A DNA stretch of 35,660 nucleotides, from positions 1 to 35,660 of the forward strand of contig VGEU01000026.1 of assembly GCA_016869145.1 (NCBI GenBank), written 5' to 3'. This document shows positions 15,190 to 30,726 of this stretch, one piece after another. The DNA is from Alphaproteobacteria bacterium. Lineage in GTDB: Bacteria; Pseudomonadota; Alphaproteobacteria; MPNO01; VGEU01. The position numbers and the translations under genes were made by a program. How positions within the stretch are numbered: the first letter of the stretch is position 1; each line of letters opens with the position of its first letter. A model generated the notes under the pieces. That model did no database searches. It saw only the letters and a program-made list of their open reading frames with translations, and had not been told where the DNA came from.

Positions 15190-15543
15190 ATGGGCAACGA
15201 TCCCGCCGCAGCCGCGGCATTGGCGGCGAAGATCGCCGGGCAGGGCGGCGCCGTCGGCTCGGGCGACAGCTTCATCGCGCTGTTCACCGTGTTCGTCCTC
15301 GCCGTGTTCGTCGGCTACTACGTGGTTTGGAACGTGACGCCGGCGCTGCACTCCCCGCTCATGAGCGTGACCAACGCGATCTCGTCCGTGATCATCGTCG
15401 GCGCGCTGATCGCCGCCGGTCCGGTCGAGTTCAACCTGTCGAAGATCATGGGCTTCGTCGCGGTGGTGCTCGCGGCGATCAACATCTTCGGCGGGTTCAT
15501 CGTCTCGCAGCGCATGCTGCAGATGTACCGCAAGAAGAAATAA
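15190..15543 (+). CDS. pntAB: NAD(P) transhydrogenase subunit alpha part 2 (membrane)
   Basis: Protein of 117 residues with three hydrophobic helices at roughly 32-52, 60-80 and 85-107 and the conserved loop [15 protein letters not shown]-like stretch (here [20 protein letters not shown]). It is the membrane part of the split alpha subunit; together with PntB it forms the proton channel. The N-terminal 25 residues are Ala/Gly-rich and probably flexible, linking to domain I. A strong GGAGG precedes the ATG. It lies between pntAA and pntB with short gaps, so the three are co-expressed. Confidence 0.95.
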
Positions 15544-25787: not shown

Positions 25788-26375
25788 TCAGCGGCCCGGC
25801 GTGTCGGCGGCGGGCTCGGGAATGGTCGGCTGCTCGCCGGTGCCCGGCGGCCCGGCGGCGGCGCGCGCGCGCGCGATCGCGCTCTCGAGCTCCTCGCGCG
25901 AGCAGAGCCCGAGCACCACCGGATCGTGCGGCTTGATGTTGGTCGCGTTCCAGTGCGAGCGGTCGCGGATCGCCTTGATCGTCGGCTTGGTGGTGCCGAC
26001 GAGCTTCGAGATCTGGGCGTCCGAGAGCTCCGGGTGGTGGCGGATCAGCCACGCGATCGCATCGGGCTTGTCCTGGCGGCGTGCGACGGGCGTATAGCGC
26101 GGACCCTTGGTGCGCGGCGACGGGCGCGGCACATGGGTCTCGGCCATGTGCAGCCGCGAGTCCGGGTCGCGTTCGCAGCGCTCGAGCTCCTCACGGGTGA
26201 GCTGGCCGTTGAGGACGGGGTCATAGCCGACCATGCCGGTCGCCAGCTCGCCATCGGCGATGCTCTGCACCTCGAGCGGGTGGAGGCCGCAATAGTCCGC
26301 GATCTGGTCGAAGGTCAGCGCGGTGTTCTCGATCAGCCAGACCGCGGTCGCCTTGGGCATGATGGGTCGAGCCAT
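25788..26375 (-). CDS. trcR: TrcR-family (DUF1013) cell-cycle transcriptional regulator
   Basis: Protein of 195 residues matching the DUF1013/TrcR family, alphaproteobacterial regulators studied for their link to the CtrA cell-cycle circuit. Two helix-turn-helix-like segments are visible: LTFDQIADYCGLHPLEVQSI at 20-39 and LSDAQISKLVGTTKPTIKAI at 117-136. Other conserved stretches are MARPIMPKATAVWLIENT, GPRYTPVARRQDKPDAIAWL and HWNATNIKPHDPVVLGLCS. The C-terminal 25 residues are Pro/Gly/Ala-rich and probably disordered. The ATG at 26375 follows AAGGAG; an in-frame ATG at 26420 lies upstream of it. It is downstream of the quinone oxidoreductase gene on the same strand, 112 bases apart. A CtrA-type box lies 1.5 kb away. 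Confidence 0.82.
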   Translation of the reverse strand: MARPIMPKATAVWLIENTALTFDQIADYCGLHPLEVQSIADGELATGMVGYDPVLNGQLTREELERCERDPDSRLHMAETHVPRPSPRTKGPRYTPVARRQDKPDAIAWLIRHHPELSDAQISKLVGTTKPTIKAIRDRSHWNATNIKPHDPVVLGLCSREELESAIARARAAAGPPGTGEQPTIPEPAADTPGR

Positions 26376-26398
26376 GTGTTCTCCTTCCCGAATCCGCG

Positions 26399-26414
26399 GG
26401 CGCCCGCGGGCGCC
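26399..26414. repeat. Perfect 16-bp palindrome in the trcR leader
   Basis: GGCGCCCGCGGGCGCC reads the same on both strands and lies 24-39 bases before the trcR ATG, just upstream of its Shine-Dalgarno sequence. It could be an operator or a hairpin that slows initiation, but GC-rich palindromes arise readily at this base composition. Confidence 0.35.
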
Positions 26415-26487
26415 GATCACCGGCGCTCCGGCCGGGCATGAGGTGCAATATGGGTGGCGTTCACCGCGCGAGCAAAGGCAATCGCCG

Positions 26488-27492
26488 TCAGGTCTCCAGA
26501 ACGATATTGCCGATGTGTCCCGAGGCCTCGATCAACGCATGCGCCTCGGCCGCCTTCGCGAGCGGAAACGTCTTGTGGACCAGGGGTTTGATCGTCCCTG
26601 CGTCAAACAGCGGCCAGGCCGCGGCATGAAGCGCGCCCGCGATCGCCGCCTTCTCGGCGACCGTGCGGGGGCGGAGCGTCGAGCCGGTGATCACGAGCCG
26701 CCTGCTCATCACCTGCCACAGCGGCAGCTCGACCGTGCCGCCTTGGGTGATCGAGACCTGGACCAGGCGGCCGCCGGTCGCGAGGAGCTGGAGATTGCGC
26801 GCGAAATAATCGCCCGCGACGATGTCGAAGACGACATCGACCCCGCGCCCGCCGGTCTCGGCCTTGACGACGGCGACGAAATCCTCGGTACGGTAGTTGA
26901 TGGCGCGATCGGCGCCGATCCGGGCGCAGGCGGCGCATTTCTCGGCCGTGCCGGCGGTCGTGAACACGCGGGCGCCGAAGCTGTGGGCGAGCTGGATCGC
27001 CGCCGACCCGACGCCGCCGGCCCCGCCGTGGATCAGGACCGTTTCGCCGCGCTGAAGCCGTCCGCCGTCATAGAGATTGGTCCAGGCGGTAAAGAACGTC
27101 TCGGGGATGGCGGCGGCCGTGATCATGTCCATCCCTGCCGGAACCGGCAGACATTGCGGCGCCGGGACGGCGCAGTATTCGGCATAGCCGCCGCCCGAGA
27201 CGAGCGCCGTGACACGGTCGCCGATACGCCATGTGCCGGTATCTGGCCGGCCGAGGGCGACGATGGTGCCGGCGATCTCGAGCCCCGGAATGTCGCTCGC
27301 GCCCGGCGGCGGCGGATAGCTCCCCTGGCGCTGGCGGACGTCGGGATAGTTGACACCGGCCGCCGCGACGCGGACCAGAACCTCGCCCGCCGCCGGCGTC
27401 GGCAACGCCTGGCGCCGCGGCATCAGCACCTCCGGTCCGCCGGGGCGGTCGATCTCGATGACGGTCATGGAATCGGGGAGCGCGCCCGGCAT
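26488..27492 (-). CDS. NAD(P)H-quinone oxidoreductase, zinc-free MDR family
   Basis: Protein of 334 residues of the PIG3/QorA-like quinone oxidoreductases (TIGR02824 type), soluble NADPH-dependent enzymes of the medium-chain dehydrogenase superfamily. Features: GEVLVRVAAAGVNYPDVRQRQGSYP at 36-60 (split over the catalytic domain), DIPGLEIAGTIVALG at 67-81, the nucleotide motif IHGGAGGVGSAAIQLA at 154-169 and VDVVFDIVAGDYFARNL. Zinc-ligand cysteines of alcohol dehydrogenases are missing, as expected. I take the ATG at 27492, which has AGGACGAG upstream. A second ATG at 27468 lacks such a site. It is divergent from the DUF1192 gene. The order trcR, qor-like, DUF1192 is one I associate with Rhodospirillales. 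Confidence 0.9.
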   Translation of the reverse strand: MPGALPDSMTVIEIDRPGGPEVLMPRRQALPTPAAGEVLVRVAAAGVNYPDVRQRQGSYPPPPGASDIPGLEIAGTIVALGRPDTGTWRIGDRVTALVSGGGYAEYCAVPAPQCLPVPAGMDMITAAAIPETFFTAWTNLYDGGRLQRGETVLIHGGAGGVGSAAIQLAHSFGARVFTTAGTAEKCAACARIGADRAINYRTEDFVAVVKAETGGRGVDVVFDIVAGDYFARNLQLLATGGRLVQVSITQGGTVELPLWQVMSRRLVITGSTLRPRTVAEKAAIAGALHAAAWPLFDAGTIKPLVHKTFPLAKAAEAHALIEASGHIGNIVLET

Positions 27493-27578: not shown

Positions 27579-27761
27579 ATGGACGAGGAAGCCCAGAAGC
27601 CGCGCGTCTGGAAGCCGGGCCAGATCGATCTCGGGTCGCTTTCGGTCGCCGAGCTCACCGACTATATCGCGGCGCTCGAGACCGAGATCGCGCGCGTACG
27701 CGCCGACATCGCGCGCAAGGAGCGCCATCGCAGCGGTGCGGATTCGCTGTTCAAACGCTGA
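27579..27761 (+). CDS. DUF1192 family small protein
   Basis: Protein of 60 residues with the DUF1192 core: LGSLSVAELTDYIAALETEI followed by ARVRADIARKERHRSGADSLFKR, a single amphipathic helix with a basic, coiled-coil-like C-terminal half. The family is confined largely to alphaproteobacteria and has no assigned function. The ATG at 27579 follows GGAGCGGAAGG. An open frame extends upstream to 27498 across the divergent promoter region without support. After its stop there are about 285 bases without a gene, holding several hairpins, a CtrA-type box and a terminator. Confidence 0.78.
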   Translation: MDEEAQKPRVWKPGQIDLGSLSVAELTDYIAALETEIARVRADIARKERHRSGADSLFKR

Positions 27762-27847
27762 AAATTTCTAACGGATTCTTTCGGAAGGCCGCGCGGATCA
27801 GCTTTAGGAGCCACGTATTATCCATATTTTTCAAGGCATTGATGAAG

Positions 27848-27878
27848 ATCGGCACCACCCCGCCGAGCGGTGTCCGAT
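27848..27878 (+). other. Hairpin directly before the CtrA-type box
   Basis: ATCGGCACC (27848-27856) pairs with GGTGTCCGAT (27869-27878) in a 9-bp stem with one bulged T and a 12-base loop. It is not followed by a T-run. It may be a stem in the 3' region of the DUF1192 transcript, or part of a longer non-coding RNA ending at 28012. Confidence 0.4.
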
Positions 27879-27892
27879 TAACCAATTCTTAA
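27878..27892 (+). promoter_or_regulatory. CtrA-type box TTAA-N7-TTAA
   Basis: TTAACCAATTCTTAA is an exact match to the TTAA-N7-TTAA sequence recognised by the master cell-cycle regulator CtrA of alphaproteobacteria. It lies in an AT-richer patch within a very GC-rich region, which makes chance less likely. CtrA activation usually places the box at the -35 region, so a transcript would begin near 27910-27920, inside the structured region before the terminator at 27983-28012. Binding is inferred from motif only. Confidence 0.5.
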
Positions 27893-27914
27893 GGGTCGCG
27901 GTCCATCTTAGGCT

Positions 27915-28012
27915 TCGACGGCTCGGTCATGCCGGGCCGTTGATGGATCCTCATCCCATCCATTTGACGCCTCCCTGTTAACTGAGCCGCCTTTCGGGGC
28001 GGCTCATTTTTT
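27915..28012 (+). ncRNA. Candidate small RNA: three successive hairpins ending in an intrinsic terminator
   Basis: Between the CtrA-type box and the terminator lie three stem-loops in a row: 27916-27942 (CGACGGCTCGG with CCGGGCCGTTG, 11 pairs including two G-U), 27943-27963 (ATGGAT with ATCCAT) and the terminator 27983-28006. No protein gene fits: the only start in the span, ATG at 27929, stops after four codons (MPGR). The start near 27915 is set from the box spacing and is uncertain. The alternatives are a long 3' untranslated region of DUF1192 or an attenuator-like leader for the DUF1465 gene. I do not recognise a known RNA family. Confidence 0.35.
27983..28012 (+). terminator. Rho-independent terminator before the DUF1465 gene
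   Basis: TGAGCCGCC and GGCGGCTCA form a perfect 9-bp stem around TTTCGG, followed by six Ts. It is one of the two best terminators in the window. It stands 34 bases before the ATG of DUF1465 on the same strand, so it separates that gene from whatever is transcribed upstream. Confidence 0.9.
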
Positions 28013-28039
28013 GCGCCGATCGGCAGGGCGCTTGCTACT
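28011..28039 (+). promoter_or_regulatory. Candidate DUF1465 promoter, near-leaderless
   Basis: TTGCGC at 28011-28016 and GCTACT at 28034-28039, 17 bases apart. The -35 begins inside the terminator T-run. The -10 ends 7 bases before the ATG at 28047, which has no Shine-Dalgarno sequence. The -10 is weak. Confidence 0.25.
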
Positions 28040-28046
28040 GTCATCC

Positions 28047-28538
28047 ATGCCCACCGACCCCACGCCCGACCCGGCTCCCGATCCGGCCTCCGATCCCGCC
28101 ACCAACCCGGCGGTCGCGTTTCTCGATCTCTGCTACGACGAGGCGACGGCGCTTTTGGTCGAGGCGCGCGATTATCTCGAGGGGCTCACCGGCGAGGCGG
28201 CGGATGCGCTGTCGCCGGAGGGCGCGCTGGCGCTGACCGGCGCGATGACGTTGCTCACCCGCCGGCTGACCGAGGCGATGGCGTGGCTGATGCTGGAGCG
28301 CGCGATCGCCGGCGGCGAGGTGGCGCTCGCGGAAGCCCGCGACCACGCCGCCTACACGCTCTCCGACGGGCCCGACCTCGTCGCCGATCGCGTTCCGGGC
28401 GCGACGGCGGGGGACGCGGCGGCATTGCCGCTCGCGGCGCGCGGGCTCCTCGACCGGTCGCGCCGGCTCTATGTCAGGCTGCTCGGGATCAGGAAGGCGC
28501 TCGTCGCGGCCCGGGCCGCGGCCGGACCGGCTACTTGA
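28047..28538 (+). CDS. DUF1465 family protein
   Basis: Protein of 163 residues. The N-terminal 24 residues are a low-complexity run of DP pairs ([19 protein letters not shown]). The rest matches the DUF1465 family: [22 protein letters not shown], a helix with [30 protein letters not shown] and a C-terminal helix ending in [15 protein letters not shown]. The family is alphaproteobacterial and of unknown function; the fold appears all-helical and soluble. I use the ATG at 28047. It lacks a ribosome-binding site and may be translated from a leaderless mRNA. It converges on rpmE with an 8-base overlap of the ends. Confidence 0.75.
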
Positions 28539-28755
28539 GGCCGATATCCTTGAACCGCTTGTTGAACTTGGCGACCTGGCCGCCCGTGTCGATCAGGCGC
28601 TGGCTGCCGCCGGTCCACGCCGGATGCGACAGGGGGTCGATGTCGAGCCGGAGCGAATCGCCGGCCTTGCCCATGGTCGAGCGGGTCTTGTAGCTCGTCC
28701 CATCGGTCATGATGACCGTGATCTCATGATAGTCGGGGTGGATGTCTTTCTTCAT
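28531..28755 (-). CDS. rpmE: 50S ribosomal protein bL31, cysteine-free form
   Basis: Protein of 74 residues with the bL31 pattern [20 protein letters not shown], then [20 protein letters not shown] and the C-terminal [11 protein letters not shown]. It has no cysteine at all, so it is the form without the zinc ribbon (C-minus), which is usual in this group of bacteria and would make it independent of zinc supply. GGAGAG precedes the ATG. bL31 bridges the large and small subunits at the central protuberance. It stands alone, between DUF1465 and the chemoreceptor pseudogene. Confidence 0.95.
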
Positions 28756-28875: not shown

Positions 28876-30523
28876 TCAGACGCTCCGGAGATGCTTCATG
28901 AAGCTCTCGATCTGCTGACGGAGCTCGGTCGCCTTCTCCGACAGGATGCCCGCGGCGTTGCTCACCTGGCTCGACGCCTCGCCGGTCTCGCTCGCGGCCT
29001 GAGACACGCCGGTGATGTTGCCCGAGACCTCCTGCGTGCCCTGCGCGGCCTGCTGGACATTGGTCGCGATCTCCTTGGTCGCGGCGGCCTGCTCCTCGAC
29101 CGCGGACGCGACGCGGTCGCGATCTCGTTGATACGTCCGATCGTGTCGCCGATGCTCCGGATCGCGCCGACCGACTGGTTGGTGGCCGACTGGATCTCGG
29201 TGATCTGCGCGCCGATCTCCTCGGTCGCCTTGGCGGTCTGGTTCGCGAGCGACTTGACCTCGGAGGTGACGACGGCGAAGCCCTTGCCGGCCTCGCCGGC
29301 GCGCGCCGCCTCGATCGTCGCGTTGAGCGCGAGAAGATTGGTCTGGCTCGCGATGTCGTTGATCAGCTTCACGACCTCGCCGATGCGCTGCGCCGATTCG
29401 GCGAGGCCCTGGACGGTCGCGTTGGTGCGCGAGGCCTCGTCGACCGCGGCCTGGGCGATGCGGCTCGATTCGGTGACCTGGCGACCGACCTCCTGCACGG
29501 TGTTGGACAGCTCCTCCGCGGCGGCGGCGACGGTCTGGACATTGGTCGTCGCCTCCTCGGACGCCGCCGAGACCGCGGTCGACTGCCGGCTGGTCTCCTC
29601 CGCGGCCGCCGACATCGCCTGCGCGGATTGCTGCAGCGATTCGACGTTAGCGGTGACGGCCTCGACGACCTTGAGGACGGTCGCCTCGAAATCGTCGACG
29701 AGCTTCACCTGGTGCGAGATGACGCTCCACGTCACCATCGGGCCGAGATAGGTGCCGTCGGTGCCCTTGATCGCCGACACGCGGAGCTCGAGCGTCTCCG
29801 GCCCCAGCTTGATGCGGGCGTTGTGCGGCAGGTTCTTCGGATCGGCGAGGATGCGCCGCTGATGGGTCGGGTTCTTGTGGAAGATGTCGATCGACTTGCC
29901 GAGGATCTGGTCGGACGGATCGGCAGGAGATGCTCGATCGCCTTGAGCGTCGTGAGGCTCGTCTTGTTCATGTAGGTGATCTCGAACTTCTCGGGATCGC
30001 AGGTCATGACATTGATCGGCATCTCGTCGAGCATCTGGAGAAGCCGCTTCTGATCGGCCTCCGCCTTGACCTTGTCGGTGACGATCTGCCAGGTCAGCAT
30101 CGGAAACGCGTACGCGCCGTCGCGGCCGAAGACCGGGCTCACCAGGAGCTCGAGGATCTCGTCGCCGAGCTTGATGTTGGCGCGATGCGGCAGGTTCTTC
30201 GGATCGGCGAGGAGACGACGCTGATGCTGCGGCGTCTTGTGGAAGATGTCGACGGTCTGGCCGACAATGTCCTCGACCTTGCACGGCAGGAGGTGCTGGA
30301 GCCGCTTCAGCGTCTCGAGGCTCGTCTTGTTCGCGTAGTTGATCTGGAATGTCGCGAGGTCGAGCGTCATGACGTTGACGGGCATCGCGTCGACCATCTG
30401 CATGAACGAGGCGAGCTGTTCCTGCGCGCCGGCGCCACGGCCGCCGAACAGGCGGAAGCCGCGTCCCGACGACGCGGCGCTGAACGAGGGAACGGTGGCG
30501 GGCTTGCGGGCGAATGCGGACAT
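28876..30523 (-). pseudogene. Soluble double-PAS methyl-accepting chemotaxis protein gene with two frameshifts
   Basis: Reading from the ATG at 30523 (AGGAAG upstream), PAS1 spans about residues 40-150 and PAS2 begins at about 160. In PAS2 the frame breaks at about 29921, after AIEHLLP. It resumes one base off with [18 protein letters not shown] and runs through the receptor signalling domain, including the tip [20 protein letters not shown] and [12 protein letters not shown] second break lies at about 29111 after NEIATA. The other frame gives [20 protein letters not shown] and ends ESFMKHLRSV at TGA 28878-28876. Adding one base at each break makes 1650 bases, exactly 550 codons. No membrane helix is present, so the receptor would be cytoplasmic. 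It lacks a CheR-binding pentapeptide. It may be a genuine recent pseudogene or a sequencing artefact. A longer start at 30622 lacks a ribosome-binding site. Confidence 0.85.
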
Positions 30524-30726
30524 CGAGGGGGCTTCCTTTATCGCTGCGGTTTCTGCATGTACGAAGGGGTCGGCCGGGTGCGGAACGATCGTTAATGATG
30601 GTCGGTCGAAGCTGGTCGCCATGCTGAACGATTTACGCTAACGGTCGGTAAACGCCGCCAACCGGGCTAGGACAGTTCGCCTAGCACAGGGCGTGCGGTC
30701 CCGACTTGCCGACCGGGGGCCCATAT

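Follow-up and report, generated by a model that had tools for sequence, protein, structure and literature searches.

Few small RNAs are, to our knowledge, under the control of CtrA; one of them, CcnA, is best known from Caulobacter. In Caulobacter crescentus, CcnA is encoded at the replication origin, and RcdA serves as an adaptor for CtrA proteolysis (PMC8959179). The Sinorhizobium meliloti RNAs EcpR1 (PMC4414408) and GspR (PMC5928217) are likewise tied to cell-cycle regulators, from other loci than the one described here. The alpha-r8 family (MmgR and SisA-D; RF00519) carries an anti-Shine-Dalgarno type motif, CCUCCCU, before its terminator (PMC12559287). In this family the core, UUUCCUCCCU, comes after a single weak hairpin, and the gene usually sits beside one for an N-formylglutamate amidohydrolase. 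SorY (RF02651) and SorX (RF02784) of Rhodobacter sphaeroides are driven by stress sigma factors. TakP is a TRAP transporter protein. In Rhodobacter, SorY has an effect on the takP mRNA and restricts the import of malate (PMC6238624, PMC5036791). A further family, BjrC1505 (RF02356), named from Bradyrhizobium, is known but almost unstudied, and the gene described here is one of its members.

The DNA analysed, called the window throughout, is a stretch of 35,660 bases on contig 26 of a 3.93-Mb alphaproteobacterial draft genome (247 contigs; 99%-complete assembly). An original prediction, made from the letters alone, placed in it a short RNA, some 100 bases long, behind a CtrA-type box. At the level of sequence this is now strongly supported by family membership, by covariation and by a box that is universal in the alphaproteobacterial homologues examined.

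Locus, family membership and RNA structure

The small-RNA stretch is free of genes and is flanked by a DUF1192 gene and an RcdA-family gene (Table 1). The latter, which begins 34 nt past the end of the terminator and had been overlooked at first, is by its DUF1465 domain and its NCBIfam match below the cut-off a divergent member of the RcdA family. The locus order DUF1192-RNA-RcdA-rpmE is conserved, and genes for the quinone oxidoreductase, TrcR, DUF1192 and L31 surround the RNA and rcdA across loci. The distance of about 1.5 kb originally given for trcR is accurate, the gene ending about 1.46 kb from the element. Farther along, a PAS/methyl-accepting chemotaxis gene (28876-30622) lies in pieces on several overlapping frames of the minus strand, apparently through frameshifts in the draft.

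Table 1. Features of the locus, with positions counted in the window
Feature	Position	Strand	Evidence
trcR, conserved neighbour	25788-26417	-	PF06242 1.7e-65
PIG3-type quinone oxidoreductase, conserved neighbour	26488-27492	-	
DUF1192 gene, upstream neighbour	27579-27761	+	PF06698 1.3e-19; neighbour kept among relatives
Bulged hairpin of the original prediction	27848-27878	+	-11.8 kcal/mol, z -2.1, marginal; upstream of predicted promoter
CtrA-type box TTAA-N7-TTAA (TTAACCAATTCTTAA)	27878-27892	.	Exact
-10-like element CATCTT	27904-27909	+	Family consensus TAtnAt at the same place
Predicted small RNA, BjrC1505 (RF02356) family, about 97 nt	27916-28012	+	Start inferred from promoter spacing and conservation onset
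Hairpin 1	27916-27942	+	-19.9 kcal/mol, z -5.6; 5/5 consensus pairs with changes on both sides
Hairpin 2, C-rich loop CCUCAUCCC	27943-27963	+	-3.2 kcal/mol, z -0.8; 4/4 consensus pairs covary
Hairpin 3, loop CCUCCC (27970-27975), anti-Shine-Dalgarno	27964-27981	+	
Intrinsic terminator and U tract	27983-28012	+	-19.2 kcal/mol, z -5.5; 3/7 consensus pairs covary
RcdA-family gene (DUF1465)	28047-28538	+	PF07323 1e-16; NCBIfam RcdA 44 bits against equivalog cut-off 170
rpmE (ribosomal protein L31), conserved neighbour	28531-28755	-	

Computation assigns the segment to the BjrC1505 family as a small-RNA gene. When the whole window was scanned with cmscan, the sole match above its gathering score was RF02356 at 27871-28012 (52.0 bits against 50), full-length over model positions 1-140. 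Other members score 55-118 bits. The window copy is thus a low-scoring, divergent member; it has the same hairpin-hairpin-CCUCCC-terminator order, and alignment A1 and the pair counts indicate that it shares its structure and its CCUCCCUGUU core with the stronger ones. A covariance model, R1, built from 92 homologues with the window sequence among them, matches the window at 75 bits (E 1.6e-17). Of 387 genomes searched with R1 across the class, about 37 have the RNA at an E-value no higher than 1e-8, and with blastn it is detected in 11 of the 27 genomes of the source order. The protein-coding reading of the RNA was rejected: only short mechanical open reading frames cover it, and homologues differ by insertions and deletions.

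The predicted RNA of 97 nt has a folding energy of -46.1 kcal/mol (z -4.7). Across the 92 homologues, 12 of 22 consensus pairs are changed on both sides, and 95.7% of cells are paired, against 90.5% in shuffles and 34-48% when partners are slid. Hairpin conservation thereby exceeds what composition gives, which was the original prediction's own test. The terminator it named is strong by energy, and two of its other hairpins (hairpins 1 and 2) stand, the second weak in energy and covarying. The bulged hairpin was rejected as a part of the RNA, its energy being marginal and its position before the predicted start and promoter. The first reading had missed hairpin 3, which the RNA has in addition to hairpins 1 and 2 and the terminator. 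It is near-invariant in alignment A1, partly since the core served as the search pattern.

The RNA gene is tandemly duplicated in L004, L006 and L007 (genomes G010, G016 and G013) and on contigs 10 and 15 of G004, every copy having a CtrA-type box and a terminator of its own. A search for plasmid copies of the RNA found none. The source genome also holds a second RNA-like element (L189:1981-2057; contig 23, about 15320-15373) after a LysR-type gene. It has CCUCCCUGUUGAC and a terminator, and scores 28.5 bits with the SorX model and 25.7 bits with mmgR, both below the cut-offs.

The CtrA-type box, the promoter and CtrA

The exact TTAA-N7-TTAA noted at first is indeed present, and it is the single copy in the 35,660 bases of the window, whose G+C content is 70%; no copy occurred in 100 shuffles. 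The whole source genome holds 14 exact copies, against none of the pattern read backwards. Other exact sites of this genome (L182, L184, L186 and others) appear mostly intergenic, as working regulator sites would.

Homologues were gathered from 257 Gb of genomes by the RNA core TTTGACGCCTCCCTGTTNA alone, the box being left out of the search. The sample of at least 113 loci with full flanks is dominated by Hyphomicrobiales. Among the matches listed, the box lies upstream, with at most one mismatch, in each of the 111 alphaproteobacterial loci that have full flanks (68 exactly), and its start is nearly always 75-89 nt before the core. The two loci that lack it are chance matches outside the alphaproteobacteria (Bacteroides and Chitinophagaceae; Bacteroidota). 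Shuffles of the same region give an exact box in 0.7% and a box with at most one mismatch in 10.5% of cases; for random places in the loci the values are 0.8% and 1.7%. Spacer 7 alone is so enriched, other TTAA spacers not similarly. All 30 strong R1 matches that were fetched have the box (29 with at most one mismatch, one with two), 18-38 nt before the start of the model. Homologues with the box are mostly Hyphomicrobiales, and also come from Sneathiella, Rhodobacteraceae and unnamed families. The conservation of TTAA-N7-TTAA at the promoter position would, by sequence criteria, place the gene in the CtrA regulon.

In 93 non-redundant promoters, the -10-like TAtnAt forms an information peak at +26 to +31 from the start of the box, and RNA conservation sets in at +38 to +42. 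From this spacing and onset, the RNA probably starts near 27916. A sigma-70 consensus scan found no promoter, but is uninformative for a promoter of this type. The Rfam model RF02356 spans the promoter, since it begins some 7 nt before the box; its consensus piece UUuACggccuAUUaacc reads TTTA-N7-TTAA at model positions of about 8-24. It seems that the 5' part of RF02356 is promoter DNA mistaken for RNA, and a correction of the model is on offer.

Among genomes with a strong RNA match, 32 of 37 have CtrA (E at most 1e-60), as do 222 of 350 others (Fisher p 0.006, uncorrected for kinship). For the family, CtrA control appears well supported by these sequence comparisons. In the source organism it can only be inferred, because no CtrA orthologue was found in its 99%-complete assembly. 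Three queries were used there, namely Caulobacter CtrA and the CtrA proteins of the relatives G013 and G035; the best match had 34% identity. The Caulobacter query works, since it found matches of 60-83% in other genomes. CheY, a neighbour of ctrA in relatives, is absent as well. GcrA is present. Either the ctrA gene is missing from the draft or another regulator may act at the box. CtrA was found in two of the 27 genomes of the source order. In G010, CtrA is split over two frames; in G016, cheB, which stands beside ctrA in relatives, is shortened and followed by an unrelated gene (loci L165:5185-5920 and L174).

Proposed mode of action and its alternatives

Taken together, the observations are likely explained by a BjrC1505 small-RNA gene with a CtrA-box promoter, a terminator ending at 28012 and an anti-Shine-Dalgarno action on ribosome-binding sites. 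The box would form the -35 region, and the RNA would run from about 27916 to the intrinsic terminator. Phosphorylated CtrA, or its present substitute in this organism, would turn the RNA on, so that it appears while CtrA is active. The exposed CCUCCC loop and its flanks, perhaps with the CCUCAUCCC loop, would pair with purine-rich ribosome-binding sites, probably assisted by Hfq, and the pairing would block translation. The best candidate targets here are TRAP-type nutrient transporters.

These candidates come from the 11-mer ACAGGGAGGCG, which is complementary to the loop and its flanks. It has five genomic copies, among them the one in the RNA gene, where about 1.3-1.5 are expected by composition. 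All four others lie at ribosome-binding sites, those of genes for DctP, DctQ, DctM and an alpha/beta-hydrolase. Three are thus TRAP-transporter genes, with DctQ and DctM in one operon and DctM translated from a TTG start. For comparison, a 400-kb sample gave 131 GGGAGG words and 20 gene starts, so that only some 15% of such words lie at the beginning of a gene. The predicted duplexes range from -27.5 to -35.3 kcal/mol, whereas 286 gene starts average -18.2 (sd 4.2); this ranking is not independent because the four sites were picked for complementarity. In other genomes the same word lies mostly away from gene starts. TRAP-transporter targeting is therefore a lead from an exploratory search.

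The segment could instead be the 5' leader of rcdA, the box driving rcdA and the short RNA being the product of a stop at the leader terminator. This is distinctly unlikely, even if a same-strand RcdA homologue lies 3' of the RNA in 95 of the 117 loci among the matches listed (in seven of the 22 loci without one, fewer than 700 nt are available downstream), and CtrA motifs have been reported upstream of rcdA start sites in S. meliloti (PMC3616915) and in agrobacteria, where they lie at a greater distance than in Caulobacter (PMC10469942). Among the same listed matches, rcdA has its own exact box past the terminator in 32 of the 95 loci (L043, L046, L094 and 29 others) and one with a single mismatch in 16 more, so that two transcription units are favoured over a leader. 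Homologues L213 and L215-L217 retain the RNA and the box with none of the neighbour genes, tandem copies repeat the full unit of box, RNA and terminator, and no alternative anti-terminator pairing was seen. In the window, the 34 nt between terminator and start codon hold no box, and read-through into rcdA may therefore occur here.

Also unlikely, in our view, is a real RNA whose box, CtrA having been lost in this organism, has passed to another OmpR-type regulator or become a relic. The several queries found no CtrA in the source genome, it was not found in 25 of the 27 genomes of the order, and core and box look decayed in two CtrA-less relatives, with four mismatches in the core and two in the box of G003, and two in each of G015. 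The window copy, unlike these, is intact with an exact box, the 14 exact boxes against none reversed suggest a site in use, and a draft of 247 contigs could miss one gene. Action other than by blocking Shine-Dalgarno sites, for example as a sponge for RNA or protein or by activation of an mRNA, is possible, if rather improbable; C-rich loops can serve in either way. CcnA has been proposed to free the ribosome site of ctrA and to occlude the gcrA site (PMC8959179), and a sponge targets the sibling RNAs SisA-D (PMC12559287). However, each of the four exact complements in this genome falls at a ribosome site, and SisA, which has a similar CCUCCCU motif, represses many mRNAs.

The box, found at the same place before the RNA in nearly every relative examined, points to a long-standing RNA arm of the cell-cycle circuit in alphaproteobacteria that has been overlooked. 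More tentatively, and with some doubt on our part, BjrC1505 may be an ancestral RNA branch of the CtrA regulon in this class: driven by CtrA and fixed beside rcdA, the anti-Shine-Dalgarno RNA would lower nutrient-transporter synthesis during the part of the cell cycle in which CtrA is active. Such an arm would have gone unnoticed because its promoter box sits inside the Rfam model and CtrA motifs at the locus were credited to rcdA. A CtrA-box RNA beside the gene of a CtrA-degradation adaptor would give the master regulator of the cell cycle a post-transcriptional output of wide distribution; Mesorhizobium, Bosea, Devosia, Roseibium or Bradyrhizobium, all culturable, could serve to test this reading.

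Comparison with described small RNAs

In the literature searched, no link between BjrC1505 and CtrA was found; the original Bradyrhizobium report lay outside this search and may hold a prior mention. Nor did the same literature show the link with the box, the synteny with rcdA, the corrected start or the transporter lead.

Like CcnA, the window RNA has a C-rich loop and, shortly before its start, a CtrA box (-23 in CcnA; 24 nt from box end to predicted start here). CcnA is 182 nt long, the window RNA about 97 nt, and the two differ in location, the conserved locus here being that beside rcdA and not the origin. EcpR1 was set aside since its loop UCCGCCGCAUCU (PMC4414408) is absent from the RNA, and GspR on account of its different locus.

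The alpha-r8 family resembles the window RNA in its anti-Shine-Dalgarno motif before the terminator. Membership was rejected at 22.1 bits against a cut-off of 41, the window reading UUUGACGCCUCCCU and not UUUCCUCCCU. SorY and SorX share CCUCCCUGUU and a terminator with it but differ in being driven by stress sigma factors rather than CtrA. Neither model claims the window RNA: SorY gives 25 bits against a gathering score of 111, and SorX is far below its cut-off. The SorY, SorX and alpha-r8 (mmgR) models detect only the shared tail of CCUCCCUGUU plus terminator. In its effect on takP, SorY echoes the TRAP-transporter targets predicted here.
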